This document shows positions 16,752-37,108 of a stretch of 44,973 nucleotides of DNA, piece after piece. Source of the stretch: Clostridia bacterium (GTDB lineage: Bacteria > Bacillota > Clostridia > Oscillospirales > CAG-272); the NCBI GenBank assembly GCA_017453305.1, contig JAFTKJ010000081.1, forward strand, positions 1 to 44,973, read 5' to 3'. The position numbers and the translations under genes were made by a program. The notes under the pieces are model-generated. The model was not told the DNA's origin. It ran no database searches and saw only the letters and a list, made by a program, of their open reading frames with translations. The number at the start of each line of letters is the position of its first letter. Position 1 is the stretch's first letter.

Positions 16752-16783
16752 TGTGCGATTCCTCCCAAAAATAATCTGTATAT

Positions 16784-16812
16784 ATGATATCATAAAAAGT
16801 GAATAAAAACAA
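16784..16812 (-). promoter_or_regulatory. Promoter of the URO-D-like gene
   Basis: On the minus strand, TTGTTT (16812-16807), 17-nt spacer and TATCAT (16789-16784). Confidence 0.55.
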
Positions 16813-16885: not shown

Positions 16886-16914
16886 TGGAAAAACGCATCA
16901 GAATTTGCTACAAT
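16886..16914 (+). promoter_or_regulatory. Putative extended -10 promoter of the GH20-like array
   Basis: TACAAT (16909-16914) is preceded by TGC, giving an extended -10. The -35 position (TGGAAA at 16886) is poor, suggesting dependence on an activator. Confidence 0.5.
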
Positions 16915-16940: not shown

Positions 16941-17915
16941 ATGGAACGTATCTGGAGCTATTTTATTCAATTGGGAAGTAATATGTGGCGCGACACGTGG
17001 TCGCATACCGAGTTTCGCGGTCCCAGAATTGCGCAAGCTACGGGACGCTATTTTCCTACGATGCATACCGACCGTACAGTTTGGCGCGAAACGATCGATT
17101 TTTTGCCCTCTTGCGGCTTTAACGCAGTCATCATTGACGTGGGAGAGGGGATTCAATACGACACACATCCCGAGCTGTCGGTTCCCGGGGCGTGGACAAA
17201 GGACGAGCTTCGCGCGGAGCTTGCGCGGATTCGCTCCTTAGGACTGGAGCCGATTCCAAAGCTGAATTTTTCTTCCAACCACGATACTTGGTTGGGGGAT
17301 TACGCGCACATGAAGGGAACGCAAAAATACTATGAGGTCGTAAGGGATCTGATCGACGAGGTCTGCGAGGTATTTGCGCCCGTAAAATATTTTCACGTCG
17401 GTATGGACGAGGAAGACCTTCCCACGCACCGCAAATCAATGACCATTATCCGTTGCAATGACCTTTGGTATCACGATCTGTACTTCTACATGAAGTGTGT
17501 TGAAAAGCACGGCGCTCGTACGTGGGTTTGGGGGGATTACTACCGCGGACATAAGGATACGTTCCTTCAAAAAATGCCCAAGGAGTGCCTGATTACCGAG
17601 GCGTGCTACGAGCGTGTTCTGCCACGGCGCGAGAACGGGATGTTCCCATATCCCGGCTTTAACTCTATGGTGGAAATTGCGCAGCTCGGCTACGATCAGG
17701 TTCCCTGTGCCAGCACTTGGGCGTGCCATCAGAATTTGGCACAAGCGGTCAAGTTCTGCTTTGATGAGGGCATTGTAAACGAGCGTCTTTTGGGCTTTCT
17801 GAGCGTACCGTGGCAAATGACCGACGAGATCAGCCGATACGTGCTTTTAGACGATGCACACCGCACCAAGTACGCCAAGGAGCTGTTTGAAAAGCTGTTG
17901 AAGGAGCGATCTTAA
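16941..17915 (+). CDS. GH20-like minimal TIM-barrel protein, paralogue 1 (subgroup A)
   Basis: A 324-residue cytoplasmic protein without signal peptide. The core motif H152-V-G-M-D156-E157 fits the GH20 beta-hexosaminidase signature H/N-x-G-[ACGM]-D-E, where D-E are the substrate-positioning and acid residues. Other blocks shared by all six paralogues are SHPE or THPE (76-79), PKLNF plus HDTWL (106-117), GAR-WVWGDYY (191-201), MPKECLI and STW-CHQN. It is much shorter than ordinary GH20 enzymes and lacks the extra N-terminal domain, so substrate may differ. Subgroup A is marked by LG-NMWRD at 11-17. AAAAAGGAGG precedes the ATG. First gene of a six-gene run. Confidence 0.8.
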   Translation: MERIWSYFIQLGSNMWRDTWSHTEFRGPRIAQATGRYFPTMHTDRTVWRETIDFLPSCGFNAVIIDVGEGIQYDTHPELSVPGAWTKDELRAELARIRSLGLEPIPKLNFSSNHDTWLGDYAHMKGTQKYYEVVRDLIDEVCEVFAPVKYFHVGMDEEDLPTHRKSMTIIRCNDLWYHDLYFYMKCVEKHGARTWVWGDYYRGHKDTFLQKMPKECLITEACYERVLPRRENGMFPYPGFNSMVEIAQLGYDQVPCASTWACHQNLAQAVKFCFDEGIVNERLLGFLSVPWQMTDEISRYVLLDDAHRTKYAKELFEKLLKERS

Positions 17916-17916
17916 A

Positions 17917-18897
17917 ATGGATTACATTTGGGGATATTTTATTCACCTTGGTACAAATATGTGGCGCGATACGTGGTCGTTGGTTGAGCATCGTGGACCG
18001 CACATTTGTCAGGCAACGGCGCGGTGGCAGGAAACAATGATCACTGACCGCGCGGTATGGCGTGACGTGGTGGATTATCTGCCTTCCTGTGGCATCAACA
18101 CGTTGGTGATCGACGTGGGCGAGGGGGTACGGTACGACAGCCACCCAGAGCTTGCGAACCCCGGTGCATGGTCAAAGGAGGAGCTGAGAGCAGAGGTGAG
18201 GCGCATTCGCGCCATGGGTATGGAGCCCGTACCAAAGCTGAACTTTTCCTCTTACCACGATGCGTGGTTGCGCGAATACGCGTGGATGAAGGGAACCGCA
18301 AAATACTATGAAGTAGTCAAGGAAGTGATAGACGAGGTAGCCGAGATCTTTGCACCCGTCAAATATTTTCACCTTGGCATGGATGAGGAGAGCGTTCCCA
18401 ACCACCGCAAGGGCATGACCATTATTCGATGTAACGACCTATGGTATCACGATTTGTACTATTACATCGACTGTATCGAAAAGCACGGGGCACGCCCATG
18501 GATCTGGGGAAGCTACTATCGCTACAGCAAGGATACCTTTGCGGCAAAAATGCCAAAGGATTGTATTTTAACCGACAGCGCATTTGAGCGGCTTGTACCG
18601 CCCGATGCAAACGGACGGTATATACACGAGGGCTTTAATGCTTTGGTGGAGCGTGCGCGGCTTGGATACGATCAAACCTTGGATTGCAGCGTTTGGTGCT
18701 GTAAGCAAAACGTTGCGCAGGTGATCCTGCTGGCGCACAACGAGGGGCTGTTTGACGAGCACCTTTTGGGTCTGCTCGCTTCCCCGTGGGCAAAAACGAC
18801 TGCGGATAACCGCTACGCGCTGTTGGATATGGCGCACCGCACAAAATATGCAAAAGAACTGTTTGAACAATATTATTTAAGTAATAAAAAAATTTGA
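17917..18897 (+). CDS. GH20-like minimal TIM-barrel protein, paralogue 2 (subgroup A)
   Basis: 326 residues, starting one base after the previous stop, with AAGGAG inside the end of gene 1, so the two are translationally coupled. It carries H152-L-G-M-D156-E157, SHPE (76-79), LNFSSYHDAWL and IIRCNDLWYHDLYYY as in paralogue 1. The N-terminus has LGTNMWRDTW, which marks subgroup A. Differences from paralogue 1 include GSYYRYSKDTF in place of the GDYY loop and a distinct loop after the CILTDSAFERL segment; these may tune specificity. No signal peptide. Likely acts on an imported glycoside. Confidence 0.8.
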   Translation: MDYIWGYFIHLGTNMWRDTWSLVEHRGPHICQATARWQETMITDRAVWRDVVDYLPSCGINTLVIDVGEGVRYDSHPELANPGAWSKEELRAEVRRIRAMGMEPVPKLNFSSYHDAWLREYAWMKGTAKYYEVVKEVIDEVAEIFAPVKYFHLGMDEESVPNHRKGMTIIRCNDLWYHDLYYYIDCIEKHGARPWIWGSYYRYSKDTFAAKMPKDCILTDSAFERLVPPDANGRYIHEGFNALVERARLGYDQTLDCSVWCCKQNVAQVILLAHNEGLFDEHLLGLLASPWAKTTADNRYALLDMAHRTKYAKELFEQYYLSNKKI

Positions 18898-18916
18898 AAG
18901 GATAAAGGTAAACATC

Positions 18917-20002
18917 ATGAAAAAAATTTGGAGCTATACCATTCAACTCGGATTTAACATGTGGAGAGATGAAAACTCCGTTCCGGAAAACGACGGTCCC
19001 TTCCAGTGCCAATCCACGGGACACTATCAAAAGACAATGCTGACCGAGCGCGACACATGGCGCCGCGTAGTGGATCAGTTGCCTTCCTTTGGCGTCAATA
19101 CCTTGTTGATCGACCTTGGCGAGGGTGTGCAGTACAAGAGTCACCCCGAGCTTGCCGTTGAGGGCGCTTGGACGGTAGAGGAGCTCAAGGAGGAGCTTGC
19201 ACGCATTCGTGCGCTTGGCATGGAGCCCATTCCAAAGCTCAACTTCTCCTCCTATCACGATGCCTGGCTTACCCCCTACTGCGCACAGAAGGGAACCGAT
19301 GCCTATGACAAGGTGGTAGCAGATCTGATCGACGAGGTTTGTGAGATCTTTGATTCTCCTCGCTTCTTCAATCTTGGTATGGACGAGGAGGAGTTCCCGA
19401 ACAGCCCTCGCCGCACCAATTGGTGGCACAACGATTACGTGCGCACCAACACCACCCCTCGCGACGAGGCGGCTTATTTCTCCGATCTTGCCAAAATGGT
19501 GGCACGCGTTGAGAAAAACGGTGCACGCGCATGGATCGTAGGTGACTATTTCTGCACTCATCCCGAAGCATTCCTTGCAAATTGCCCCAAGTCCTGCGTG
19601 CTCTCCATGTCCTTCTGGGATCGCATTGTTCTCAAACCCGACGGCTCTTATCCCGACCGCCCCATCTACGATGAGATCCGCGCCCTGGCGGCTGCCGGCT
19701 TTGACCAGATCCCCGAGGCGAGTGATTGGACCTGCCATCAGAACATTCCGCAGTTCGTGTACTTCTACATGGAGTTCGGACTTGTCAACGAGCATCTGCT
19801 CGGCTTTAACGCAGTTCCCATGCAGGCAACGGTAGATCTGAACTACTACACGCTGCTCAACAATGCAAACCGTGTCAAGTTTGCAAGAGCCATGTTTGAG
19901 GATCCCGACGTGCAGGCGACTGCCGCCGCTTACTATGCGTCTATCAGCAACGATGACGAGGCAAAGGCTTACGGAAAAGTTGTTGAGGAAGAGATAGGCT
20001 GA
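18917..20002 (+). CDS. GH20-like minimal TIM-barrel protein, paralogue 3 (divergent, longest)
   Basis: 361 residues, the most divergent and longest copy. The motif reads N152-L-G-M-D156-E157, so the histidine is replaced by asparagine, still allowed in the GH20 pattern. After it, the IIRCNDLW block is replaced by a different Trp-containing segment (NWWHNDYV). A C-terminal extension of about 35 residues (AAYYASISNDDEAKAYGKV) is absent elsewhere. The N-terminus (LGFNMWRD) places it in subgroup A. The catalytic Asp-Glu pair is kept, so it is not an obvious dead copy. GAAAGGATAAAGG precedes the ATG. Confidence 0.78.
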   Translation: MKKIWSYTIQLGFNMWRDENSVPENDGPFQCQSTGHYQKTMLTERDTWRRVVDQLPSFGVNTLLIDLGEGVQYKSHPELAVEGAWTVEELKEELARIRALGMEPIPKLNFSSYHDAWLTPYCAQKGTDAYDKVVADLIDEVCEIFDSPRFFNLGMDEEEFPNSPRRTNWWHNDYVRTNTTPRDEAAYFSDLAKMVARVEKNGARAWIVGDYFCTHPEAFLANCPKSCVLSMSFWDRIVLKPDGSYPDRPIYDEIRALAAAGFDQIPEASDWTCHQNIPQFVYFYMEFGLVNEHLLGFNAVPMQATVDLNYYTLLNNANRVKFARAMFEDPDVQATAAAYYASISNDDEAKAYGKVVEEEIG

Positions 20003-20004
20003 TC

Positions 20005-20961
20005 ATGAAACGAGGCTATTTTCTTTCCCTCGGTGGCAATGGCGGCCGCGATGAGTGGTCGTTTTTGGAGCAGCGTGGCCCTGATATTTGCCAAGGCACG
20101 GATCTTTACAAAAAAACGCCTTACGTCGATCGCGTTTTGCTGTATGAGATCATTGACGAGGTCGCCAAAATGGGCATCGACCTTGTGGTCTTGGACGTTC
20201 TGGATGCTATGCAATACGAGTCGCACCCCGAGATCTCGCTTCAGAATGCGTTTACGCACGCGGAGATCCGCAAGCTTTTGTCCTATATGCGGGAGCGCGG
20301 CATCGAGCCTGTACCGAAGCTGAATTTTGCCTCCTGTCACGATACTTGGCTCAAGGAATATTCCCGAATGAAGGGGACTGCAAAATACTATGAGGTGGTC
20401 AAGGATCTGATCGATGAGGTGTGCCGTGTGTTCGACTACCCGAGGCTGTTTCACTTTGGCATGGACGAGGAGGATCTGCCCACACACAAAAAGGGCATGA
20501 CCATTATTCGTTGCAGTGATCTGTGGTTCCACGATCTGTATTTTTACAAGGAATGTGCAGAAAAGAACGGTGCACGCGCATGGGTCTGGGGAGACTATTA
20601 TTGGGCACATCCCGACGAGTTTCTCAAAAAAATGCCCAAGGAGTGCCTCATCTCAAACTGGGGCTATATGCGCTACGACGAGGGACATCCCCGCGTAAAA
20701 ATGCAGTATGACACGTATATTGCTTTGGCAAAGCACGGTTACGACCAAATGCCTTGCTCAAGCACCTGGTGCTGTTCACAGAATGTGGCGCAGCTGGCGC
20801 ATTTCTGTCAAAAGCACGGCTTGGTCGACGAGCACTTTATGGGGATCATAGCAACCCCGTGGACATACGTTCAGGAGGTCAACCGCTATTGGTTGCTTGA
20901 GGACGCGCACCGCCTGGCGTATGCTTGCAAGCTGCTTGAAACGAAAAAAACGGAGGCATAA
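20005..20961 (+). CDS. GH20-like minimal TIM-barrel protein, paralogue 4 (subgroup B)
   Basis: 318 residues, first of subgroup B, whose N-termini read LGGNGGRDEWS instead of LG-NMWRD. Motif H150-F-G-M-D154-E155 with SHPE, PKLNFASCHDTWL, IIRCSDLWFHD, NGARAWVWGDYYW, KECLISNWGYMRY and STWCCSQN. It starts two bases after the stop of paralogue 3, with a GAGGAAGAG ribosome site inside that gene. The subgroup B copies lie together (4, 5, 6), so the array probably grew by local duplication after an A/B split. Confidence 0.8.
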   Translation: MKRGYFLSLGGNGGRDEWSFLEQRGPDICQGTDLYKKTPYVDRVLLYEIIDEVAKMGIDLVVLDVLDAMQYESHPEISLQNAFTHAEIRKLLSYMRERGIEPVPKLNFASCHDTWLKEYSRMKGTAKYYEVVKDLIDEVCRVFDYPRLFHFGMDEEDLPTHKKGMTIIRCSDLWFHDLYFYKECAEKNGARAWVWGDYYWAHPDEFLKKMPKECLISNWGYMRYDEGHPRVKMQYDTYIALAKHGYDQMPCSSTWCCSQNVAQLAHFCQKHGLVDEHFMGIIATPWTYVQEVNRYWLLEDAHRLAYACKLLETKKTEA

Positions 20962-20963
20962 AA

Positions 20964-21908
20964 ATGAATTTGCGAAAGGTCTATTTTATTTCCCTTGGCG
21001 GAAACGGCTCGCGTGACAAGTGGTCCTGGATTGAGCACCGCGGTCCCACCGTCTGCCAATCTACGGGACGCTTTAAGGAGACGGTTGCAATTGATCGCAC
21101 CATGCTGTATGAGATTGTGGACGAGGTTTCCAAAATGGGTATTGACCTGGTGGTGATTGACCTTGAAGACGCCATTCAATACCACTCGCATCCCGAAATC
21201 TCCCTCAAGGAGGCTTTTACCCATGAGGAACTGCGTGCGCTCCTGTCCTATATGCGCGAGCGCGGCATCGAACCGATTCCGAAGCTGAATTTTTCCGCAT
21301 GCCACGATATCTGGCTCAAGGAGTACTCGTGGATGAAGGGAACGCAAAAATATTACGAGGTGGTAAAGGATATCATCGACGAGGTCTGCGAGGTGTTTGA
21401 TCACCCAAGCCTGTTCCATCTCGGCATGGACGAGGAGGATATGCCCAACCATAAAAAGGGTATGACCATCATCCGTTGCAACGATCTGTGGGCACACGAT
21501 CTCTATTTTTACATGGACCGCGTGCAAAAAAATGGCGCGCGTCCGTGGATCTGGGCGGACTTTTACTGGAATCATGCCGACTTTTTCAAGCAGAAGATTC
21601 CAAAGGAATGCCTGCTTTCCAACTGGGGGTATATGCGCTACTGCGAAACGCACGAGCGCGTAAAAATGCAGTATGATTCCTATATCGCGCTCTCGGAGCT
21701 TGGCTATGATCAGATTCCCTGCGGCAGCCTTTGGTGCTGCCATCAGAACATGGGTCAGCTGGTGCACTTCTTTGTAAAGCACGGACTGATCGACGAGCAT
21801 CTGCTGGGCTTTATGATCACTCCGTGGACCGGCATTTCCGAGGTGAACCGCTACGATCTGCTCGATAACGCTTACCGCTTACAGCAGGCGTTCAAAATGC
21901 TGAAGTAA
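20964..21908 (+). CDS. GH20-like minimal TIM-barrel protein, paralogue 5 (subgroup B)
   Basis: 314 residues, the shortest copy. It has LGGNGSRDKWS at the N-terminus, SHPE, PKLNFSACHDIWL, H152-L-G-M-D156-E157, NGARPWIWADFYW and LWCCHQN. Similarity to paralogues 4 and 6 runs along the whole chain. GGAGG lies 8-12 nt before the ATG and only two bases separate it from the previous stop. The GD of the GDFYW loop is AD here, which may affect the active-site edge. No signal peptide. Confidence 0.8.
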   Translation: MNLRKVYFISLGGNGSRDKWSWIEHRGPTVCQSTGRFKETVAIDRTMLYEIVDEVSKMGIDLVVIDLEDAIQYHSHPEISLKEAFTHEELRALLSYMRERGIEPIPKLNFSACHDIWLKEYSWMKGTQKYYEVVKDIIDEVCEVFDHPSLFHLGMDEEDMPNHKKGMTIIRCNDLWAHDLYFYMDRVQKNGARPWIWADFYWNHADFFKQKIPKECLLSNWGYMRYCETHERVKMQYDSYIALSELGYDQIPCGSLWCCHQNMGQLVHFFVKHGLIDEHLLGFMITPWTGISEVNRYDLLDNAYRLQQAFKMLK

Positions 21909-21943
21909 AGCACTTTGAAATCAAATGATGTGAGGTATAAAAT

Positions 21944-22906
21944 ATGATTCAAACATGGTGTTATTTTCTCGGCCTTGGCGGAAACGGCGGGCGTGATAAG
22001 TGGTCCTTTACCGAACATCGCGGACCCTCGATCTGTCAATGCACCGGGCGTTATAAGGATGCACCGGTAATCGATCGCAAGCTTTTGCGCGAGTTGGTGG
22101 ACGAGCTTTCTCACTTTGGCATCAATATGGTCGTTTTGGACGTGTTGGACGCCCTGCAGTACAGTAGTCATCCCGAGATCTCGCTTGAGGGGGCATTTAC
22201 CCACGAGGAGCTCCGTGCAGAGCTTGCCTACATGCGTGAGCACGGCATTGAGCCGATCCCCAAGCTGAATTTTTCCTCTTGTCACGATACCTGGCTCAAG
22301 CAGTATGCGTGGATGAAGGGAACGCAGACGTATTACGACGTTGTGCGCGATCTGATCGATGAGGTCTGCGAGGTATTTGACCGTCCGCGTCTGTTCCATC
22401 TTGGCATGGACGAGGAGGATCTTCCCACACACCGCAAGGGGATGACCATCATCCGCTGTGACGCACTTTGGTGTCACGACCTTTACTTCTACATGGACTG
22501 CGTACAAAAGAACGGTGCACGCCCATGGATCTGGGGAGACTTTTATTGGGCACATCCAGACGTCTTCAAAAAGAAGATTCCCAAGGAGTGCCTGATCTCC
22601 AACTGGTGGTACGAGCGCTTGAAGACCGATGAAACAGGGGCATTCTTGCCAAAAACCGAGATGGATACTTACGTTGCTCTCTCGGAGCTGGGATACGATC
22701 AGATTCCTTGCACCAGCACCTGGTGCTGTCACCAGAACATTGCGCAGACGGTTCTCTTTTTCAAGGAGAAGGGGATTTTGGATGATCCGCATCTGCAGGG
22801 CTTTATGGTTGCACCTTGGACGGGCACGGTCGAGACAAGCCGTTACAGGCTGCTGGACGATGCCTATCGTATGATGTACGCTAAAAAGCTCTTGGAGAAC
22901 CGTTAA
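21944..22906 (+). CDS. GH20-like minimal TIM-barrel protein, paralogue 6 (subgroup B)
   Basis: 320 residues, last gene of the array. Motifs are LGGNGGRDKWS, SHPE, PKLNFSSCHDTWL, H152-L-G-M-D156-E157, NGARPWIWGDFYW, KECLISNWWYERL and STWCCHQN. A short insertion lies around residues 230-240 compared with copies 4 and 5. It is preceded by GTGAGGT and a 35-bp gap, and followed by a strong terminator, so transcription of the array ends here. Like its siblings it is predicted to be intracellular. Confidence 0.8.
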   Translation: MIQTWCYFLGLGGNGGRDKWSFTEHRGPSICQCTGRYKDAPVIDRKLLRELVDELSHFGINMVVLDVLDALQYSSHPEISLEGAFTHEELRAELAYMREHGIEPIPKLNFSSCHDTWLKQYAWMKGTQTYYDVVRDLIDEVCEVFDRPRLFHLGMDEEDLPTHRKGMTIIRCDALWCHDLYFYMDCVQKNGARPWIWGDFYWAHPDVFKKKIPKECLISNWWYERLKTDETGAFLPKTEMDTYVALSELGYDQIPCTSTWCCHQNIAQTVLFFKEKGILDDPHLQGFMVAPWTGTVETSRYRLLDDAYRMMYAKKLLENR

Positions 22907-22913
22907 AAAATAT

Positions 22914-22964
22914 AGGACTGCGATTGTCACTTCCCACACGGGGAGAGCAATTGCAGTCCTTTTG
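22914..22964. terminator. Bidirectional terminator after the GH20-like array
   Basis: AGGACTGC (22914-22921) plus ATTG pair with CAAT plus GCAGTCCT (22948-22960), followed by TTTTGATTTATTT. It also serves the convergent AraC gene. Confidence 0.8.
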
Positions 22965-22966
22965 AT

Positions 22967-23806
22967 TTATTTGGATTGTGAAAGGTCCTTTTGCGGAATT
23001 TTTCTGACGGGAGAATGTCCCGTTTGCTTGCGGAAGGTGCGGTAAAAGGTGGAATAATCGCGAAAGCCGAGGCGAAGCGCTACGGCAGTGGCGCTCTCTC
23101 CGCTGTTGATCAATTGCTGTGCCAGCGCCATTCGCTTGGTGTTATAGTAGGTGAACAGCGAAGCGCCCGTTTGCTTGTGGAAGATGCGGCAAAGATGGTA
23201 TTTGCTGATAAAGAAATCTCGCGCGATGTCATCCAGTGAAAGATCTTCATTCAAGTGGCTGTTGACGTATTCGATCACGCGCAATACGGTATTGCTTTCC
23301 TCCGAGCCAATTTTTTTTGCACTGCGCAGAGTCAGGAGCAAAAAGATCTGTGCGGTGGTCGCCTGCAAAAATGCGTGCGCCGCAGGAGTGGATTCGCCGT
23401 CCTCTCCAAGCATATGCCTTACGGAGTCCAGCGTTCGGTACGCACTTTTGATGGGGTCTTCCAGGTCTTCCATGGGGAAGTAGCATTCTCCGGTGTTCTT
23501 TAACAACGGATGTGTGCGCAAGGCTTCGGGAAGAGCCGACGCCTCAAAATTGATGACGGTGCGCTCGTAGCATCGCCCAAGCTTGGGACAAACGTAGTGA
23601 TACTCGTACGGCCGCATCAAAAGGAGCATGTGCGGATGCAACGGATATTCCACGCCCTCCACAATGTATTTTCCCTCACCTTGCCAGATGTAGATCAGCT
23701 CGTAGTTGCTGTGGCAATGGCGCTCAAACTTTTCGGTGCGAGAGTTATCGAATTCGGAATGAGAGGCGTAAATTTCGGGACATGAGAGTCGAAAACGGTA
23801 GGACAC
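22967..23806 (-). CDS. AraC family regulator between the GH20-like array and the hexuronate operon
   Basis: A 279-residue regulator. The N-terminal cupin-like domain (about 20-110) contains ERHCHSNYELIYIWQGEG and HPHMLLLMRPYEYHY. The C-terminal AraC double helix-turn-helix (about 175-270) contains LSLDDIARDFFISKYHLCRIF and TAVALRLGFRDYSTFYRTFRKQTGHSP. The start is GTG at 23806 behind a GGGGGG-type ribosome site; no ATG fits better. It is divergent from the eight-gene isomerase/uxa operon and convergent with the GH20-like array, and probably controls one or both. A carbohydrate effector is inferred from the neighbours. Confidence 0.85.
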   Translation of the reverse strand: MSYRFRLSCPEIYASHSEFDNSRTEKFERHCHSNYELIYIWQGEGKYIVEGVEYPLHPHMLLLMRPYEYHYVCPKLGRCYERTVINFEASALPEALRTHPLLKNTGECYFPMEDLEDPIKSAYRTLDSVRHMLGEDGESTPAAHAFLQATTAQIFLLLTLRSAKKIGSEESNTVLRVIEYVNSHLNEDLSLDDIARDFFISKYHLCRIFHKQTGASLFTYYNTKRMALAQQLINSGESATAVALRLGFRDYSTFYRTFRKQTGHSPVRKIPQKDLSQSK

Positions 23807-23910: not shown

Positions 23911-24056
23911 AAAGATAAAGTGAGAAAATATTGCAAAAATCAGAATTCGCCCTCTTTTTTGCTCGCTTTTTCTTCCGTAATACTTGCATTTTGTGCGGAG
24001 GAACGAAGGTTTTCTTGCAATCGGCTATAAGCCGCAACAGAAAGGATGTATTTATC

Positions 24057-24821
24057 ATGAAACTTGGAGCACAACTTTACTCTTTGCGCACGTTTGCACA
24101 AACACCCGAGGATCTTCGCACTACCATCGAAAAGTGCAAGGCGATGGGTTACCAAAACGTTCAATTTTCCGGTGTTGCTCAAATGGGCGCTGACGTATGG
24201 GCGCAGATTTCCAAGGAGACCGGCATGGAGATCGTTTGTACGCACAACGCGTTTGACCGTATCGTCAACGACACCGATGCCCTGATCGCAGAGCATAAGA
24301 TCTTTGGCTGCTCCGTCATTGGTATTGGCAGTATGCCGAATGAGTTCCGTGGCTCTCGTGCGGCGCTTGAAAAGTTCTTTGAAGTTATGGAAGAACCCGT
24401 CAAGAAGATCGAGGCTGCGGGTATGCACTTTGCTTACCACAACCACGCGTTTGAGTTCGAGCCCTTCTCGGATGCTGAAGGATGCGCAATGGATGCTTTA
24501 ATCGAGAAGAAGAACTGGTTCTTGATCCTTGATACCGGTTGGGTGAACTTTGCAGGCAAGAATGCAGCAGAATACATCGAGCGCATTGGCGGTGAAAGAC
24601 TGCAGTGCATTCACTTCAAGGAATTCCAAAAGGCAGAAGTCAGCACCATTTGCCCCTGCGGCGAAGGCTTTTCTAACTTCCCCGAGATCATTGCGGCTTG
24701 CGAAAAGGTCGGTGTGAAGAATGCACTGGTCGAGCAGGACAACGCGCCCTCCAAGGAAGATCCCTTCAACGAAATGGAGAGAAGTGCAAATTACCTCCTT
24801 CCTCTGATTGCAAAGGAGTAA
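24057..24821 (+). CDS. Sugar phosphate isomerase/epimerase family TIM barrel A
   Basis: A 254-residue xylose-isomerase-like TIM barrel (AP endonuclease 2 superfamily). It begins MKLGAQLYSLR and has the metal-ligand strands HFAYHNHAFEFE (about 140-151), LDTGWVNFAG (about 170-179), IHFKEF and VEQD near the end. Such proteins epimerise or isomerise free or modified sugars; in inositol and glycoside pathways they may act as dehydratases or lyases. ATG 24057 has AAAGGA upstream; the open frame before it is leader. First gene of the eight-gene operon; next gene 6 bp downstream. Confidence 0.88.
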   Translation: MKLGAQLYSLRTFAQTPEDLRTTIEKCKAMGYQNVQFSGVAQMGADVWAQISKETGMEIVCTHNAFDRIVNDTDALIAEHKIFGCSVIGIGSMPNEFRGSRAALEKFFEVMEEPVKKIEAAGMHFAYHNHAFEFEPFSDAEGCAMDALIEKKNWFLILDTGWVNFAGKNAAEYIERIGGERLQCIHFKEFQKAEVSTICPCGEGFSNFPEIIAACEKVGVKNALVEQDNAPSKEDPFNEMERSANYLLPLIAKE

Positions 24822-24827
24822 TTCGCA

Positions 24828-25604
24828 ATGAAATTCGGAATCTGCTTTTCCGCGCAAGAGGCGCTGGAGAGTGAAATGTTCGGTGCCGATTATCTGGAAC
24901 TGAACGCATTGAGCGTCAATAACTTGACTGACGAAGAGTTTGCATGCCTGAAGGGAAGAATCGAGCGCGGCGAGATCCGCACCTACAGCTGTAACGGCTT
25001 GGTCGACCCGGATTGCAGATTGACCGGTGAGGGGGTTGATTTTGATGCGATCCGCGCTTATTCCGAGCGCGTCTTCAATCGTCTGGCACAGTTGGGTGTT
25101 ACCATGCTGGTGTTTGGCTCCTCCAAGGCAAAGCACGTGCCCGAGGGTTTCCCCTTTGAAAAGGCGTGGGAGCAGCTCAAGCAGGTGGGCGAGATTTTTT
25201 CGGATTGCGCTGCCAAGCATGGACAGACCATTGCCATCGAACCGCTTTCCTACAACGAGGTCAATATCATCAACACTCTGGGCGATGCCGCCGAGTACAG
25301 CAGGCTGGTCAATAAAGAAAACTACAAGATTCTTGCCGACTTTTATCATGTCGACAATAACAAAGAGGATTTTGCAACCTTTGAAACCTACAAGGACCTG
25401 TTGGTGCACACCCACATCGCCACCTCGGGGGACAGATGCATGCCCCAGGACGAGAAGGATTGGGAATTTTTTGCAAAGTGTATCGGTACACTCAAAAAGA
25501 TCGGATATCAAGGGAATATCAGCTTTGAGGGTAAGCGAAACGAGGGCAATGCAGGCGTTTCGGAAATGATCGCACGCATGCGCCAAATCTACGCCGAGGT
25601 ATAA
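24828..25604 (+). CDS. Sugar phosphate isomerase/epimerase family TIM barrel B
   Basis: A 258-residue TIM barrel of the same superfamily, closer to the tagatose/psicose 3-epimerase type. Metal and substrate residues are in IAIEPLSYNEVN (about 144-155), ILADFYHVDNN (about 172-182), VHTHIATSGDR (about 199-209) and ISFEGK (about 235-240). It overlaps no neighbour but sits 6 bp after barrel A, with AAAGGAG at the end of that gene. The precise reaction is unknown; a C3 epimerisation step on a keto-sugar would fit the oxidoreductases downstream. Confidence 0.87.
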   Translation: MKFGICFSAQEALESEMFGADYLELNALSVNNLTDEEFACLKGRIERGEIRTYSCNGLVDPDCRLTGEGVDFDAIRAYSERVFNRLAQLGVTMLVFGSSKAKHVPEGFPFEKAWEQLKQVGEIFSDCAAKHGQTIAIEPLSYNEVNIINTLGDAAEYSRLVNKENYKILADFYHVDNNKEDFATFETYKDLLVHTHIATSGDRCMPQDEKDWEFFAKCIGTLKKIGYQGNISFEGKRNEGNAGVSEMIARMRQIYAEV

Positions 25605-25666: not shown

Positions 25667-26539
25667 ATGGCAAAATTTATTATCTCCGCATTTGCTGATG
25701 AAGCAGGCGAAAGCATCGAGGCGCAGATCGCTGCGCTGAAGAGAAACGGACTTCATTGCATCGAGCCCCGTAATATGAACGGTGGTCCTGTGCTGAGAAA
25801 GACCGATGAGGAATTGGCAGAGATCCGCCGTCAGCTCGACGAGGCAGGTATCAGCGTTCCTTCCTTCGGCTCTCCCATCGGAAAGTACAAGATCGAAGAG
25901 GACTTCGAGCCTCACCTCAAGGATTTCCGCCGCGCGTTGGAGGTCTGCAAGGCACTGGGCACCAAGCGTATGCGTATGTTCAGTTTCTTCGTACCGCAGG
26001 ATCAGCTCGCAGAGTACCGCGAGGAGGTTATGAGAAGACTGAAGATCATGCTCGCAGAGGCAAAGGAAGCAGGCATTCTGCTCTGCCACGAGAATGAGGG
26101 TAAGATCTACGGTGAGAGCCCCGAGGGAGTTGAGGATCTGTTGACCACGCTTCCCGAAATGAAGGGCATTTTCGATGCCGCAAACTTCGTACATTCTCAG
26201 CACGATGCAGTCAAGGGTCTGGAGGTTACACTTCCTTCCTTCGAGTACATGCACATCAAGGATTGCCTGTACGAGGGTAGCGTGATCGTTCCCGCGGGCG
26301 AGGGCGAGGGCCATGTAAAGGAAGCACTGCAGAAGATCGACGAGCTGTTCGACGGCGAGGTTGTTTTGACCGTTGAGCCTCACCTGTTCGTTTCCGACTC
26401 CTACAAGAAGTTCGACGGCAAGGAGCTCAAGCACAAGTTTGTATTCAAGACCTCCGACGAGGCATTCGACTATGCAGTCAACACCCTCAAGAAGCTCTTG
26501 GCTGAGATCGGCCATCCCGTAGAAAACGGAATCGGCTAA
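25667..26539 (+). CDS. Sugar phosphate isomerase/epimerase family TIM barrel C
   Basis: A third barrel, 290 residues, different from A and B. Signature segments are FIISAFADEAG at the N-terminus, GILLCHENEGKIYGE (about 140-154), FDAANFVHS (about 169-177), YMHIKDC (about 194-200) and VLTVEPHLFV (about 233-242), giving the expected E, D, H, E metal pattern. GAAAGGAA precedes the ATG. Three non-identical isomerase-type barrels in one operon point to a multi-step stereochemical rearrangement, not one simple isomerisation. Confidence 0.87.
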   Translation: MAKFIISAFADEAGESIEAQIAALKRNGLHCIEPRNMNGGPVLRKTDEELAEIRRQLDEAGISVPSFGSPIGKYKIEEDFEPHLKDFRRALEVCKALGTKRMRMFSFFVPQDQLAEYREEVMRRLKIMLAEAKEAGILLCHENEGKIYGESPEGVEDLLTTLPEMKGIFDAANFVHSQHDAVKGLEVTLPSFEYMHIKDCLYEGSVIVPAGEGEGHVKEALQKIDELFDGEVVLTVEPHLFVSDSYKKFDGKELKHKFVFKTSDEAFDYAVNTLKKLLAEIGHPVENGIG

Positions 26540-26594
26540 GCGGCAAAGTTAAAAATATAAAATCCATCCAATAAACGAAAGTGAGATTTTGAAC

Positions 26595-27767
26595 ATGGAA
26601 AAAGTAAGATTTGGTATTATCGGTGTCGGTAACATGGGTTCCGGCCACTCCAAGAACCTGCTTGCAGGTAAGGTAGAAAACGGCGTTCTGGCTGCTGTTT
26701 GCGATCTGAAGGATAGCAAGCTTGAGGCAATCAAGGCACTTGAGGGTGCAGAGAATGTTGCAACCTTCCACGATTACAAGGAAATGCTCAACAGCGGTCT
26801 TGTTGACGTTGTTATCGTTGCAGTCCCTCACTACTTCCATCCCCCGATGGTTATCGACGCACTCAACGCAGGCGTAAACGTCATCAGCGAAAAGCCTGCC
26901 GGCGTATATACTAAGCAGGTCAAGGAAATGAATGCGGTTGCAGAGAAGTCTGACAAGCTCTTTGGTATGATGTTCAACCAGAGAACCAACTGCCTCTACC
27001 GCAAGATGCGTGAGATGGTACAAAACGGCGAGGTTGGTGAAATCAAGCGCGTCAACTGGATCATTACCAGCTGGTATCGTACCCAGGACTACTACGATTC
27101 CGGCGATTGGAGAGCTACCTGGAAGGGTGAAGGCGGCGGCGTTCTGTTCAATCAGTGCCCTCACCAGCTCGACCTGCTCCAATGGACCGTGGGTATGATG
27201 CCCGTTAAGATGCGCGCATTCTGCCACTATGGCAAATGGCACGACATTGAGGTTGAGGACGACGTAACCGCTTACATGGAGTTCCCCAACGGCGCAACCG
27301 GCGTATTCGTAACCACCACCGCAGATGCTCCCGGTACCAACCGCTTTGAGATCACCGGTACCAAGGGCCGCTTGGTTTGCGAGGGCGGCAAGCTGATCTT
27401 CGATAAACTCGAGGTTGATGAGCGTGAGCACTGCATGACCGCTAAGGGCTTTGCAGCTCCCAAATGCGAGCGCGGCATTGAGGTTGAGACCGACGGTAAG
27501 AACGACCAGCACGTTGGTATCATGAACAACTTTGCAAATGCGATCCTGGGTCTTGAGCCTCAGTTCGTACAGGGCGTTGAGGGTATCAACGGCGTTCAGC
27601 TGATGGACTCCATGATGCTTTCCACCTGGTTGGATAAGACCGTTACTCTCCCCATCGACGATGACCTCTATCTTGCAGAGTTGAACAAGAGAATTGCAAC
27701 CGGTCGCACCAAGGAGAGTGTTGGAGACGTCGTTCTGAACACTGAGGGTACTTACGGTTCCAAATAA
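26595..27767 (+). CDS. Gfo/Idh/MocA family oxidoreductase 1
   Basis: A 390-residue NAD(P)-dependent sugar oxidoreductase. The Rossmann motif is GVGNMGSGH near the N-terminus; the signature EKPAG (about residue 97) holds the catalytic lysine; the C-terminal alpha/beta domain has GGGVLFNQCPHQLDLLQW with the substrate-binding D and H residues. The ATG at 26595 was preferred to a TTG at 26589 because AAGTGAG is then at a normal distance. Members oxidise inositols, gluco-sugars or glycosides at a ring hydroxyl. Followed after 49 bp by a second, different family member. Confidence 0.92.
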   Translation: MEKVRFGIIGVGNMGSGHSKNLLAGKVENGVLAAVCDLKDSKLEAIKALEGAENVATFHDYKEMLNSGLVDVVIVAVPHYFHPPMVIDALNAGVNVISEKPAGVYTKQVKEMNAVAEKSDKLFGMMFNQRTNCLYRKMREMVQNGEVGEIKRVNWIITSWYRTQDYYDSGDWRATWKGEGGGVLFNQCPHQLDLLQWTVGMMPVKMRAFCHYGKWHDIEVEDDVTAYMEFPNGATGVFVTTTADAPGTNRFEITGTKGRLVCEGGKLIFDKLEVDEREHCMTAKGFAAPKCERGIEVETDGKNDQHVGIMNNFANAILGLEPQFVQGVEGINGVQLMDSMMLSTWLDKTVTLPIDDDLYLAELNKRIATGRTKESVGDVVLNTEGTYGSK

Positions 27768-27816: not shown

Positions 27817-28827
27817 ATGGGAGCTTTTCGAGTTGCAGTGATCGGTTGCGGAGCTATCTCCGGTAACCACATCAACGGAATTCTTGCCGCAGGACAAACA
27901 CTTTGCGCTCTTTGCGATGTCATTCCCGAGCGCGCGCAGGCAAGCATCGAAAAATATCAGTTGGGAAATATCCCGGTTTACACCGACTACGTTGAACTGC
28001 TGGAGAAGGAAAAACCCGACTCCGTTCACATTTGTACCCCGCACTATCTCCACGCACCCATGTGCGTGGAGGCGCTGGGACGCAACATCAACGTCCTTTG
28101 CGAAAAGCCGCTTTCTATCAATGTTGATCAACTGCACGCAGTACTGAAGGCAGAGAAGGAAAGCAACGCACAGCTTGGCGTATGCCAACAGAACCGCTAC
28201 GAGCCTAACATGCTTTGGCTGATGGACTTTATCAAGGAGCACGGCGTAAAATCCGCCTTTGGCCTTGTCAGCTGGGAAAGAAATGAGGCTTACTATCGCT
28301 CCGGTGCGTGGAGAGGTACCATCCTTGAGGAAGGCGGCGGTGTCATGATCAATCAGGCGTTGCACACGCTGGATCTGCTCCAGCATATGTGCGGTATGCC
28401 CACGCACGTGACCTCGCACGTGGATAATGATTTCCACAAGGATTACACCGAGGTCGAGGATACCGCAACGGCACACTTTGAATTGGAGGATGGCACACGC
28501 TATGCCTTCTTTGGTACCACCGCGGCAACGGGCGATCTTCCCGTACAGCTGCAGTTTGTCACCAAGGACAATATGCGCGTCATCGCAGGCAACGATTTTA
28601 TTGTTGTCAACGGAAAGCAGGTGACCGTTGAGGATAACCGCAAGGCATCCAACATGGTCGGAAAAACCGTTTGGGGCACGGGGCATGCCACGCTGATTGA
28701 GGATTTCTACCGTTGCGTCCAATCCGGTGAGCCCTTCCGCATTCCCGGCACCGAGGGCGCAAAGGTCATTCAATTGATCCTTTCCATGTATCACTCGCAT
28801 GGAAACCGCATCAAGACAATGGCTTGA
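27817..28827 (+). CDS. Gfo/Idh/MocA family oxidoreductase 2
   Basis: 336 residues. Rossmann motif GCGAISGNH, EKPLS with the catalytic lysine (about residue 94), and GGGVMINQALHTLDLLQHM in the second domain. Similar plan to oxidoreductase 1 but shorter by about 50 residues and clearly distinct in sequence. GAAAGG precedes the ATG. Two such enzymes in tandem beside isomerase barrels suggest oxidation at one carbon and reduction later, as in redox-assisted epimerisation or glycoside cleavage. That assignment is inference. Confidence 0.92.
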   Translation: MGAFRVAVIGCGAISGNHINGILAAGQTLCALCDVIPERAQASIEKYQLGNIPVYTDYVELLEKEKPDSVHICTPHYLHAPMCVEALGRNINVLCEKPLSINVDQLHAVLKAEKESNAQLGVCQQNRYEPNMLWLMDFIKEHGVKSAFGLVSWERNEAYYRSGAWRGTILEEGGGVMINQALHTLDLLQHMCGMPTHVTSHVDNDFHKDYTEVEDTATAHFELEDGTRYAFFGTTAATGDLPVQLQFVTKDNMRVIAGNDFIVVNGKQVTVEDNRKASNMVGKTVWGTGHATLIEDFYRCVQSGEPFRIPGTEGAKVIQLILSMYHSHGNRIKTMA

Positions 28828-28857: not shown

Positions 28858-30189
28858 ATGAAAGAATTTTTTGGAGATGGACTTTTGCTGAATACTCCTG
28901 CGGCAGAGGTTCTGTATCAAACAGTCAAGGATCTGCCCATTGTGGACTACCATTGCCATCTCAATGAAAACGAGCTGCGCAACAATCACCGCTTTGCAGA
29001 TCTGGGTGAGCTCTGGCTTGCCGCTGACCACTATAAATGGAGAGCGATGCGTCTTTGCGGCGTGGATGAAAAATACATCACGGGAGATGCAAGCTTTTAC
29101 GAAAAGTATTTGAAGTACGCAGAGATCTTTCCGCTGTTGTGCGGCGGTCCCTTGTACTATTGGACCCAGCTGGAGCTGAAGCTTCTGTTCGGTATTCAGG
29201 AGCCTTTGTGCGCCGAGAGCGCAGAGCGTATCTGGAACCGCGCAAATGAGGTGCTCAAGACTTTGGACGCGGGTGAGATCCTGCGCCGCTTTAAGGTCGA
29301 GTACGTGGCTACCACCGACGATCCCGCCTCCGCGCTTGCGGCACATGGCGTCTGCGGCAACACCAACGTACGCCCCACCTTCCGCCCCGATTTCGTGCTC
29401 AATATGGACGAGGCTGCCATTGCAAGACTTGAGGGTGCGGTTGGAAAGAAAATCACAACTTTGGCAGAGGTCAAGGCTGCGTTGGAGGAGAGACTCAATT
29501 ACTTCCTCTCCAAGGGCTGCAAGATCGCCGACCACGGCATGGACTTTTTGCCCCTTGCCGATCCCGGTGAAGCACGCGCTGCCGAGCTGTTTGCCAAGAG
29601 AGGGGAATTGAGCTTTGAGGAAAAGCAAGAGGTGTTCTCTCACTTGATGTACTTTATGGCAGCACTGTATGCAAAGAACGAGATGGTTATGCAGATGCAC
29701 TTTGCAACCTTCCGCAACGTCAACAGCGCAAAGTTTGCCGTTTGCGGACGCGATGCAGGCTTTGATATCATGCGCGGTAACGTAGATACTGACCGCCTGA
29801 TCCCGTTCTTTGACACTTTAGCACAAAGAGATGCCCTTCCCAAAACGGTTCTGTACTCGCTCAATCCCGCGTGCGTACCTTCTTTGGCTACGCTGTCGGG
29901 CGCGTTCCCCGGTGTTCGCATTGGTGCGGCTTGGTGGTTCAGCGATACCGTTGAGGGCATTCGCCGTCAGCTGGAAACAGTTGCCGAGTACGCGGTGCTG
30001 GGAACCAACCTCGGTATGCTGACCGACAGCCGCTCCTTGGCAAGCTACGTTCGTTTTGACTTCTTCCGCCGTATCCTTGCGGATTTTGTCGGCGGCTACG
30101 TAGAGCGTGGAGAGTACGATCTGGAAAGCGCAAAGAAGTTGATGTACGGCGTTTGCTACGGCAACGTAAAGGCTTTTTTGAATCTGTAA
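28858..30189 (+). CDS. uxaC: Glucuronate isomerase
   Basis: A 443-residue enzyme of the amidohydrolase-fold UxaC family. It interconverts D-glucuronate and D-fructuronate (and galacturonate with tagaturonate). Seen: VDYHCHLNENEL (metal His pair) near residues 29-40, KWRAMRLCGV, QMHFATFRNVN, IGAAWWFSDTVEGIRRQL, GMLTDSRS and the C-terminal FVGGYVERGEY and YGVCYGNVK. It is slightly shorter than usual (about 465 residues). GAAAGGAA precedes the ATG. It feeds the SDR and UxuA steps encoded next. Confidence 0.95.
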   Translation: MKEFFGDGLLLNTPAAEVLYQTVKDLPIVDYHCHLNENELRNNHRFADLGELWLAADHYKWRAMRLCGVDEKYITGDASFYEKYLKYAEIFPLLCGGPLYYWTQLELKLLFGIQEPLCAESAERIWNRANEVLKTLDAGEILRRFKVEYVATTDDPASALAAHGVCGNTNVRPTFRPDFVLNMDEAAIARLEGAVGKKITTLAEVKAALEERLNYFLSKGCKIADHGMDFLPLADPGEARAAELFAKRGELSFEEKQEVFSHLMYFMAALYAKNEMVMQMHFATFRNVNSAKFAVCGRDAGFDIMRGNVDTDRLIPFFDTLAQRDALPKTVLYSLNPACVPSLATLSGAFPGVRIGAAWWFSDTVEGIRRQLETVAEYAVLGTNLGMLTDSRSLASYVRFDFFRRILADFVGGYVERGEYDLESAKKLMYGVCYGNVKAFLNL

Positions 30190-30235: not shown

Positions 30236-31273
30236 ATGAAAATGACATTTCGTTGGTACGGAGAAAAGGATAGTATTCCGCTTTCCTACATCCGTCAGAT
30301 CCCGGGCATGACCGGCGTTGTAACCGCCGTTTACGACGTGCCCGTGGGTGAGGTTTGGGAGCTGGACAAGATCCTGCGCCTCAAGTCCCTCTGCGATGAG
30401 AAGGGATTGGAGATGGAGGTCATCGAGAGTGTTCCCGTACACGAGGACATCAAGCTCGGTCTTCCTACCCGTGACCGCTACATTGCAAACTACGCAACCA
30501 CCATCCGCAACCTGGGCAAGGCAGGCGTCAAGTGCATCTGCTACAACTTTATGCCCGTATTTGACTGGCTCCGCACCAACCTGCACACCGAGGCAGCGGA
30601 CGGCTCCAACTCTCTCTCCTACAACCATGAGGAGCTGATGAGCCTGGATCCCCACAACCTGCACCTGCCCGGTTGGGATGAAAGCTACACCTCCGAGGAG
30701 CTCAACTCTCTTCTGGATTCCTACAGCGGTATGAGCCACGAAAAGCTGTTTGAGAACTTGGTATACTTCCTCAACGGCATTATGCCCGCATGCGACGAGA
30801 CCGGTATCAATATGGCGATCCATCCGGACGACCCGCCGTGGGATATGTTCGGCCTGCCCCGTATCATCACGGGTATGGACAGCTACAACAAGCTCTTTAC
30901 CGCCGTTCCCAACAAGCACAACGGCATCACGCTTTGCACCGGTTCCTTGGGCGCAGGACGTGACAACGACATGGTAAAAATGGCATACGACCTCGCACCT
31001 CGCTCCTACTTCGTACACCTGCGTCAGATCACCCATTCCGGTGACCTCGACTTCTGCGAGAGCGGACACCTGACCGCTACGGGAAGCCTGGATATGTACG
31101 GCATTGTCAAGGCGTTGGTAGAAGCCGGCTTTGACGGCTACGTACGCCCCGACCACGGACGCAATATCTGGGGTGAGGACGGCAAGCCCGGCTACGGTTT
31201 GTATGACCGCGCACTCGGTGCTACCTATCTCTACGGTCTGTTTGAAGCAGTAGAGAAGGGCTTGAACAAGTAA
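30236..31273 (+). CDS. uxuA: Mannonate dehydratase
   Basis: A 345-residue xylose-isomerase-fold enzyme that dehydrates D-mannonate to 2-keto-3-deoxy-D-gluconate. It starts MKMTFRWYGEKDSIPL and holds CYNFMPVFDWLRT, NMAIHPDDPPW, ITLCTGSLGA and YVRPDHGRNIWGE, all family landmarks. ATG 30236 has AAAGGA 9-10 nt upstream; the in-frame ATG 30212 has no good site and homologues start here. Its product needs KDG kinase and KDPG aldolase, neither of which lies in the window. Confidence 0.95.
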   Translation: MKMTFRWYGEKDSIPLSYIRQIPGMTGVVTAVYDVPVGEVWELDKILRLKSLCDEKGLEMEVIESVPVHEDIKLGLPTRDRYIANYATTIRNLGKAGVKCICYNFMPVFDWLRTNLHTEAADGSNSLSYNHEELMSLDPHNLHLPGWDESYTSEELNSLLDSYSGMSHEKLFENLVYFLNGIMPACDETGINMAIHPDDPPWDMFGLPRIITGMDSYNKLFTAVPNKHNGITLCTGSLGAGRDNDMVKMAYDLAPRSYFVHLRQITHSGDLDFCESGHLTATGSLDMYGIVKALVEAGFDGYVRPDHGRNIWGEDGKPGYGLYDRALGATYLYGLFEAVEKGLNK

Positions 31274-31303: not shown

Positions 31304-32134
31304 ATGAAATTACCTTATCAAATCGATCTGTCCGACAAGGTTGTAGTTGTTACCGGTGCGGGCGGAGTTCTGATGAGCGAGTTTGCTCGTGCGCTTGCAG
31401 CGTGCGGTGCAAAGGTTGCGCTTCTTGACATCAACGAAAAGGCTGCCAAGGAGGTTGCTGAATCCATCGGTGAAAATGCAATCGCCATTGGCACCAACTG
31501 CTTGGAAAAGGACAGCATTCTTGCAGCTCGCGACATCATTCACGAAAAGTTCGGCAAGGTCAACTTCCTGATCAACGGTGCGGGTGGAAATAATCCTCGC
31601 GCAACCACCGACAACGAGTACATGACTCCCGATCTTGAGGGCGCTAAGACCTTCTTTGATCTGGAGGAGAGCGGACTGAAGTTCGTATTCGACCTCAACA
31701 TCACCTCCGCATTCCTGGTTACTCAGGCATTTGCGGCTGACATGGTCAAGACCGGCGGTAACATCATCAACATTTCCTCGATGAATGCTTTCACGCCTCT
31801 TACCAAGATCCCCGCATATAGTGCTGCAAAGGCAGGTATTTCCAACTTTACCCAATGGTTGGCAGTTCACTTTGCTCCCTGCAACATCCGTGTTAACGCA
31901 ATTGCGCCCGGATTCTTTGCAACCAACCAGAACCATGCACTCCTCTTCAACGAGGACGGCACGCCTACCGCGCGTACGGGCAAGATCCTTGCAGGCACGC
32001 CCCAGAAGCGCTTTGGCGAGGTTGGAGAGCTGATCGGAACGCTCCTGTGGCTCGCAAGCGATGATGCAAGCGGCTTTGTAACGGGTGTTGTTGTTCCTGT
32101 TGACGGCGGCTTCAACGCTTACAGCGGAGTTTAA
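31304..32134 (+). CDS. SDR-type D-mannonate oxidoreductase (fructuronate reductase)
   Basis: A 276-residue short-chain dehydrogenase. The cofactor loop is VTGAGGVLMSEF (about 18-29), the NNAG-like segment is INGAGGNNP, catalytic residues are in NISSMNAF and AYSAAKAG (Tyr and Lys), and the C-terminus has VPVDGGFNAYSGV. The FNAYSG ending and the location after uxuA match the SDR-type fructuronate reductases used by Firmicutes in place of classical UxuB. It should reduce fructuronate to mannonate with NADH. GAAAGGA precedes the ATG. Last gene of the operon. Confidence 0.9.
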   Translation: MKLPYQIDLSDKVVVVTGAGGVLMSEFARALAACGAKVALLDINEKAAKEVAESIGENAIAIGTNCLEKDSILAARDIIHEKFGKVNFLINGAGGNNPRATTDNEYMTPDLEGAKTFFDLEESGLKFVFDLNITSAFLVTQAFAADMVKTGGNIINISSMNAFTPLTKIPAYSAAKAGISNFTQWLAVHFAPCNIRVNAIAPGFFATNQNHALLFNEDGTPTARTGKILAGTPQKRFGEVGELIGTLLWLASDDASGFVTGVVVPVDGGFNAYSGV

Positions 32135-37068: not shown

Positions 37069-37108
37069 AATCCAATCCTTTCTGAAAGGTGATGCAAACC
37101 GCATTGAC

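Follow-up and report, generated by a model that had tools for sequence, protein, structure and literature searches.

The GH20 domain family and its catalytic pair are well known, and single-domain GH20s form a described class ('model B'; PMC4449183, in the parts available). Also known are operons that open glycosides through oxidation at C3; in the Agrobacterium example, as far as the available parts of PMC10628242 describe it, two Gfo-type and two isomerase-type genes account for oxidation, elimination, hydration and reduction. The locus described here lies on contig JAFTKJ010000081.1 of a Clostridia bacterium (GCA_017453305.1) that probably lived in an animal gut, the whole analysed stretch of which (44,973 nucleotides) is called the window, and it brings these two elements together: six tandem genes of a divergent GH20 branch on the + strand (16941-22906), followed by an operon that looks like one for glucuronides. 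Judged by the literature searched, the array, its partly non-canonical active site and an operon link kept in four genomes are new. No report of bacterial single-domain GH20s arranged in tandem was found in that literature, which was covered mostly at listing level, and the available parts of PMC4449183 and PMC11883664 describe no comparable array. The interpretation that we favour, tentatively and at somewhat less than an even chance, is that the array encodes cytoplasmic exoglycosidases that would trim glucuronide-bearing molecules for the adjacent operon, while gene 3 would be drifting elsewhere.

The six genes are co-directional open reading frames, exactly where the initial annotation had placed six tandem paralogues. 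They occupy 16941..17915 (gene 1, 324 amino acids), 17917..18897 (gene 2, 326), 18917..20002 (gene 3, 361), 20005..20961 (gene 4, 318), 20964..21908 (gene 5, 314) and 21944..22906 (gene 6, 320), all on the + strand, with stop-to-start gaps along the array of 1, 19, 2, 2 and 35 bases, and by eye the gene starts are preceded by purine-rich stretches that resemble ribosome-binding sites. Pairwise identity among the six proteins is 41-68%, far above chance. The [HN]-x-G-M-D-E-E motif that had been claimed for all of them was indeed found in each, as were the blocks PKLNF and HDxWL; the other shared blocks are looser than claimed, SHPE being present in five genes (gene 1 has THPE), GARxWxWGD being exact in three (genes 1, 4 and 6) and STWxCHQN in two (genes 1 and 6). 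The proposed division into subgroups A (genes 1-3) and B (genes 4-6) holds for two N-terminal motifs, but the tree resolves three clades, namely genes 1 and 2, gene 3, and genes 4-6.

Assignment of the array proteins to a divergent branch of GH20, the relationship originally proposed, is supported by both Pfam and profile-profile comparison. In the family search, five of the six exceeded the PF00728 cut-off of 22.3 bits (gene 1, 23.5; gene 2, 22.4, which is marginal; gene 4, 32.9; gene 5, 35.8; gene 6, 23.9), and gene 3 did not (13.4). The family alignment used for the profile comparisons has 114 rows, made up of the six window proteins and 108 of 116 fetched relatives, eight having been left out as fragments, near-duplicates or others. 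Against 11 canonical GH20s from the same order as the window genome, this alignment scored 97.3% (E 2.6e-11) over 173 columns; against five intermediate GH20s of the window genome itself (a set from which L104, one of six weaker ones, was left out), it scored 99.35% (E 6.6e-21) over 245 columns, from strand 2 onwards. In both comparisons the catalytic Asp-Glu pair fell on the Asp-Glu pair and strand 1 lay outside the alignment, and a single intermediate GH20 still gave 96.4%. The relation persisted for the relatives outside the window clade, for subgroup A, for subgroup B and for gene 3 alone, which gave the weakest values (96.3-98.5%, in local runs). AP_endonuc_2-, HpcH- and UxuA-type enzymes were ruled out as the true family, with profile-profile values of 0.28, 0.46 and 0.15%, each comparator consisting of one to three sequences; membership of a known non-glycosidase family, named at the outset as what would speak against GH20, was not found.

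The branch is nonetheless distant from the curated models, since the Pfam GH20 model at E 0.01 was reached by just 39 of the 114 family members, and NCBIfam at 0.01 gave no named family for any of them, save a TAT signal model in three. The closest PDB entries by sequence to the family profile are 8bal, 9fym and 9fyl (E 2.2e-12 to 3.4e-12), all of them GH20 chains of 329-380 amino acids that were each matched in two separate stretches; in 8bal, strand 3 likewise has P-K-x-N, and an Arg falls on R171 of the family. None of these three codes is named in the literature searched. The statement that the proteins are far shorter than GH20 enzymes had to be given up, as single-domain GH20s have already been described and GH20 chains of 324-380 residues, including a dispersin, are present in the PDB. 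As to the proposed intracellular location, no N-terminal signal was seen by eye in the window proteins, but seven of the 114 family members match the Pfam TAT signal, and some relatives are therefore probably exported.

The active site, as read from the alignments, is conserved in its catalytic center and partly non-canonical around it. N109, H114, E157, E158 and R171 are invariant (114 of 114), and D156 (112), D199 (113), W197 (110) and W291 (110) are nearly so; the adjacent catalytic Asp-Glu is present in all six window proteins. With single-domain GH20s and dispersins, as portrayed in the available parts of their descriptions, the family shares one GH20-type domain of about 320 amino acids, the Asp-Glu pair and the strand-8 Trp. 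Trp216 and Asp218 of dispersin B resemble the strand-5 W197-x-D199 of the family, and its Asp116 position corresponds to P106-K-L-N109 (PMC11883664, in part; the residue matching is ours). Strand 3 of the family reads P-K-L-N (K in 111 and N in 114 of 114 rows), in contrast to the 11 canonical GH20s, which mostly have P-E.

The window family differs from the single-domain enzymes in that no strand-7 Tyr was found and the strand-8 Trp is not followed, two places on, by an acid. The former is the oxazoline Tyr of GH20, which holds the acetamido oxygen; no conserved counterpart was found in the family alignment, the only columns between 240 and 299 with Tyr in more than 50 of 114 rows being 243 (84) and 251 (74). 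Y223 of strand 6 might stand in for it. The acid occurs in none of the six window proteins, although this is a blunt criterion, given that just 6 of the 11 canonical GH20s have it; five of the six window genes and 56 of 114 rows do have an acid further on, at the fifth place past the strand-8 Trp position. The strand-1 Arg, which binds O3 and O4, shows no family-wide conservation either, Arg reaching at most 49 of 114 rows in columns 1-44. R17 occurs in each of the six array genes and in 15 of the 17 rows of the window clade, but in only 20 of 114 overall, and strand 1 cannot be aligned with GH20. It is to be noted that the five intermediate GH20s, too, have neither a strand-1 Arg nor a strand-7 Tyr among their invariant columns. 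Such a pattern may thus be a trait of the whole branch, and these features alone therefore do not prove a new substrate.

Within the array, several positions that are otherwise nearly fixed have changed. Comparison with 85 other rows, in which 44 columns show a constancy of 95% or more, gives 5, 8, 8, 5, 5 and 4 changes at these columns for genes 1 to 6, respectively. The strand-6 motif S-N-W-x-Y is altered in genes 1-3, in each differently: gene 1 has S219T, N220E and W221A while keeping Y223 and D156-E157-E158; gene 2 has S219T, N220D, W221S and Y223F, together with D199S; gene 3 has N220M and Y223W, together with W197V, W291M and an 11-column insert after the DEE motif. Genes 4-6 keep the S, N, W and Y of this motif and are changed at W16 and G68, and the strand-5 and strand-8 Trp are kept in genes 1, 2, 4, 5 and 6. 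The ratio of nonsynonymous to synonymous substitution (dN/dS) in orthologue pairs is 0.05-0.18, a range of which only 'below 1' is safe because synonymous sites are near saturation; with such ratios, the substitutions look like maintained changes. Since the six paralogues differ at 4-8 of the 44 constant columns, tuning to different linkages is possible.

Gene 3 needs separate comment. Its orthologues in two related loci (L010, 9773-10768; L011, 10996-11997; see below) carry D156N, so that Asn-Glu replaces the catalytic Asp-Glu. Decay of gene 3 was considered and rejected on the basis of a dN/dS of 0.07-0.18 between the gene 3 orthologues. Because its Trp/Tyr pocket is changed and the Asp has become Asn in two species, gene 3 is probably no longer performing standard substrate-assisted hydrolysis, and the changes in its lineage may be ending GH20 catalysis rather than tuning it. 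In work cited in PMC11883664 (consulted in part), replacing an Asp by Ala in a GH20 led to a 13,333-fold loss; that substitution is not the same as D156N. A non-catalytic partner function could account for such a protein: the gene 3 product would form mixed oligomers with that of gene 1, in the manner of the dimeric GH20s HexA, HexB and OfHex1, whose partners complete active sites (PMC4449183, in part). Genes 1 and 3 do occur together in all four syntenic loci; the window copy of gene 3 lacks W197, Y223 and W291, and its counterparts in L010 and L011 lack D156. Yet gene 3 and its orthologues retain N109, H114, E157, E158 and R171, which is beyond the needs of a dead partner, and we regard this alternative as unlikely.

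A more sweeping alternative is that the GH20 scaffold was reused in the whole window clade, either to act on a substrate that carries no 2-acetamido group or to catalyse a step of the 3-keto-glucuronide route other than hydrolysis. The failure to find the strand-7 Tyr and the strand-8 acid, the loss in genes 1-3 of the S-N-W-x-Y motif of the wider family, and D156N in two gene 3 orthologues with a dN/dS of about 0.1 between them all agree with such reuse. It is opposed by D156, which stands in all six window genes as in nearly all rows, by the strand-5 and strand-8 Trp retained in five of the genes, by the five intermediate GH20s, which have no invariant strand-7 Tyr either, and by the solved relatives of one of these, which are named hexosaminidase or GH20; moreover, R17 could be the usual strand-1 Arg. 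On balance, reuse across the clade appears improbable.

Downstream of the array, beyond an AraC-type regulator gene (22967..23806, -; relatives of 56-58% identity at the same place in L009, L010 and L011), lies the putative glucuronide operon, all on the + strand. It opens with three AP_endonuc_2 barrels of the xylose isomerase-like TIM type: AP1 (24054..24821; PDB 8bvk, 8tcs, 8tcd and 8tct, E 1e-13 to 4e-7), AP2 (24828..25604; 6wn6, '3-keto-D-glucoside 4-epimerase', E 4e-10, and ketose 3-epimerases) and AP3 (25667..26539; no PDB match at 1e-5), among which eliminase and hydratase roles are not assignable from sequence. Two Gfo/Idh/MocA genes follow, GFO1 (26589..27767), a dehydrogenase that is related by homology to the glycoside 3-dehydrogenase type (8tdi, 'P2B11 Glucuronide-3-dehydrogenase', E 1.2e-95), and the oxidoreductase GFO2 (27817..28827; 8tdi, E 7e-32). 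The series ends with uronate isomerase UxaC (28858..30189; E 2.6e-134), mannonate dehydratase UxuA (30236..31273; E 1.3e-140) and an SDR assigned as D-mannonate oxidoreductase (31304..32134; NCBIfam PRK08277, 390 bits, cut-off 281). Together, these three enzymes lead to 2-keto-3-deoxygluconate. Because of the match of GFO1 to 8tdi and the presence of UxaC, UxuA and D-mannonate oxidoreductase, the operon looks like one in which glucuronides are oxidised at C3, undergo elimination and then enter the glucuronate route.

The A. tumefaciens GlycDH operon (PMC10628242) and the P2B11 system (8tdi), in what is available of their descriptions, likewise combine two Gfo/Idh/MocA genes with isomerase-like barrels; the window differs from these C3-oxidation operons in having three barrels, then UxaC, UxuA and D-mannonate oxidoreductase, and a GH20-type array on its flank. 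The imported glycan of the initial annotation can accordingly be narrowed to glucuronides as far as the operon points, but an importer was not recognised among the window genes scanned.

One argument for a connection between array and operon is their common occurrence in four genomes. A core of genes 1 and 3, the AraC gene and the operon genes follow one another in the same order in the window and in loci L009 and L011 (roe deer cecum Clostridia) and L010 (an Oscillospiraceae genome). Genes 1 and 3 are adjacent in three of these four loci, and gene 2 stands between them in the window. The operon comprises the AP barrels, GFO1 and GFO2 as far as the contigs reach, and extends to uxaC and uxuA in L010 and to uxaC, uxuA and SDR in L011. 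A MATE gene is found upstream in three of the four loci, directly upstream of the array in L009 and L011; a divergent URO-D-type gene (15633-16793, -) precedes the array in the window, a position that it does not occupy in L009 and L011. Relative to the window, identity amounts to 62-77% for gene 1, 64-85% for gene 3 and 56-58% for the AraC protein, compared with 89-90% for GFO1, 76-80% for GFO2 and 89% for uxaC.

Such synteny can also be explained conservatively, i.e., by ordinary intracellular beta-N-acetylhexosaminidases, in essence the view of the initial annotation: six isoenzymes for different linkages of N-acetylhexosamine (HexNAc) oligosaccharides from host or microbes, with no functional tie to the operon, a neighbour by descent only. 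The nearest solved chains are in fact named beta-N-acetylhexosaminidase or GH20, the ten further GH20-type proteins of the genome fit a HexNAc forager, and R17 and the acid at the fifth place past the strand-8 Trp position (five of six) might serve the usual sugar contacts. Furthermore, the operon is common without the array, the nearest relatives of the array are without the operon, and the four syntenic genomes are related, so that gene order may be inherited. On the other side, the order was kept in three other loci despite the identities of the AraC, gene 1 and gene 3 proteins given above, and the strand-7 Tyr was not found. We consider this explanation doubtful, though a serious contender.

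Several of the same observations, and others, weigh against a link between trimming and the operon, and they are gathered here. Apart from the two active-site contacts that were not found, a HexNAc-catabolic gene was not recognised among the window genes scanned, and GFO1 scores far under the NCBIfam equivalog cut-offs of the named glycoside 3-dehydrogenases, including BT_2158_fam and BT_2159_fam. Relatives of GFO1 (E 1e-110) occur in 178 of 295 genomes of the taxonomic family, as compared with 3 of 295 for array-like genes (1e-100), and of these three array-bearing genomes only that of the window has the operon alongside; the other two, G275 and G099 (taken as the L012 and L014 contigs), have no operon gene beside the array-like genes. 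The nearest relatives outside the four genomes (L012, L013 and L014) are without an adjoining operon gene in the stretches available. The array is an optional companion of the operon. Its end faces a convergent AraC gene, and it would carry a promoter of its own, so that control shared with the operon would be no more than an assumption. Finally, the family-wide neighbourhood signal is weak: in a scan of 251 near genes (out of 279 selected neighbours) and 140 far open reading frames (out of 306), with crude longest-frame gene calls that include shadow frames, Gfo/Idh/MocA genes were found in 12 of 251 near versus 4 of 140 far, and AP_endonuc_2 in 10 of 251 near versus at most 1 of 140 far, where it fell outside the 25 families listed.

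A promoter-like site upstream of gene 1 (16886..16914, +) matches at 9 of 12 positions, with TG before the second hexamer; the promoter scan overall was not above chance (12 found vs 9.5 +- 3.4 expected by chance). Between the convergent gene 6 and AraC genes is a terminator-like inverted repeat (22914..22960), with 13-base arms matching at 12 of 13 positions, a 21-base loop and a T run after it on either strand; the terminator scanner takes loops of up to 8 bases, so this repeat is absent from its list.

What stands beside the operon may vary. In genomes lacking the array, seven more proteins lie next to or within related operons, in some of which GFO1 is only 60-68% identical. Three of the seven are of glycosidase types (a GH31, L156; rhamnosidase types, L159 and L160), the remaining four being a leucine-rich repeat protein, a PfkB kinase and two without a match. 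In L010, the array has a GH39-like gene at its flank. From these few cases, a changeable slot for trimming enzymes beside the operon may be envisaged. Separately, an 801-amino acid protein beside a glucuronide operon in L151 (9929-12331, +) has no Pfam or PDB match at 0.001.

In the favoured interpretation, the six genes would form one transcription unit for cytoplasmic single-domain exoglycosidases. The catalytic residues would play the roles usual in GH20s, Glu157 that of general acid/base and Asp156 that of positioning the 2-acetamido group of the -1 sugar. These enzymes would remove terminal sugars from glucuronide-bearing oligosaccharides or conjugates; the exposed glucuronide would then be oxidised at C3 by GFO1, the AP barrels would eliminate the aglycone and rehydrate, GFO2 would reduce, and the resulting glucuronate would pass through UxaC, SDR and UxuA. 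The gene 1-gene 3 pair would be the conserved core, to which gene 2 and the B-type copies were presumably added by duplication, and gene 3 would have left standard GH20 catalysis, toward other chemistry or a non-catalytic role. In this picture, the family relation, the retained Asp-Glu pair, the array, the gene order in four genomes and the homologies of the operon genes are results of the analysis; a common transcript, the location in the cytoplasm, the substrate, trimming as a function, the sequence of reactions and the state of gene 3 are inferences. A bolder form of this proposal, which we put forward with little confidence, is that gut Clostridia have re-tooled a tandem GH20 branch for glucuronides, with the -1 contacts partly replaced, the Asp expendable in gene 3, and one member working without acetamido-assisted hydrolysis, within or just before the 3-keto-glucuronide pathway.

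Tandem multiplication is itself not confined to this locus. A scan of 559 pattern-matched stretches yielded 462 that encode a family relative, and the best 80 loci were analysed; they come from Bacillota, Planctomycetota, Bacteroidota, Verrucomicrobia, Armatimonadota and Bathyarchaeota, among others, and nearly all are metagenome-assembled. Within the limits set by contig ends and flanks, 64 of these loci had one copy, 12 had two, 2 had three, and one each had four and seven. In a tree of 70 of the 114 alignment rows, L055 (seven copies), L015 (three), L033 (three) and the window array formed separate clades; that of the window includes L009 (four copies) and L010 and L011 (two each), with L012 and L013 next. 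The seven tandem copies of L055 (8994-15916), from yak cecum Clostridia, represent a separate expansion that kept nearly all conserved sites, each copy having one conserved-site change except the last, which has four. No relatives of gene 6 were found in plasmids at 1e-10.

The window genome, besides its ten GH20-type proteins outside the array family, has two more distant members of that family elsewhere (G000 contigs C20 and C37; L117 and L118), each within 10 kb of another GH20-type gene; the ten proteins near these two members revealed no clear link, five of them having no Pfam match. Two other places in the window itself are of related interest. A 570-amino acid protein (35392-37104, -), whose only match, to DUF2264, is weak (16.1 bits; cut-off 25), has as neighbours a Gfo/Idh/MocA gene and an aldolase gene of HpcH/HpaI type; this may be another locus for uronates or glycosides. 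A Gfo/Idh/MocA protein at 38927-40216 (+) has a GH109 C-terminal domain (E 1.1e-54), GH109 being a family of NAD-dependent glycosidases.

Taken as a family, these proteins are broad in distribution, thinly covered by Pfam and without an NCBIfam name. If the operon link is real, a hydrolase family would be tied to the C3-oxidation route of glycoside breakdown, and six natural paralogues, with one lineage in which the catalytic Asp has been given up in two orthologues, would offer a series for studying the residues of specificity and substrate assistance.

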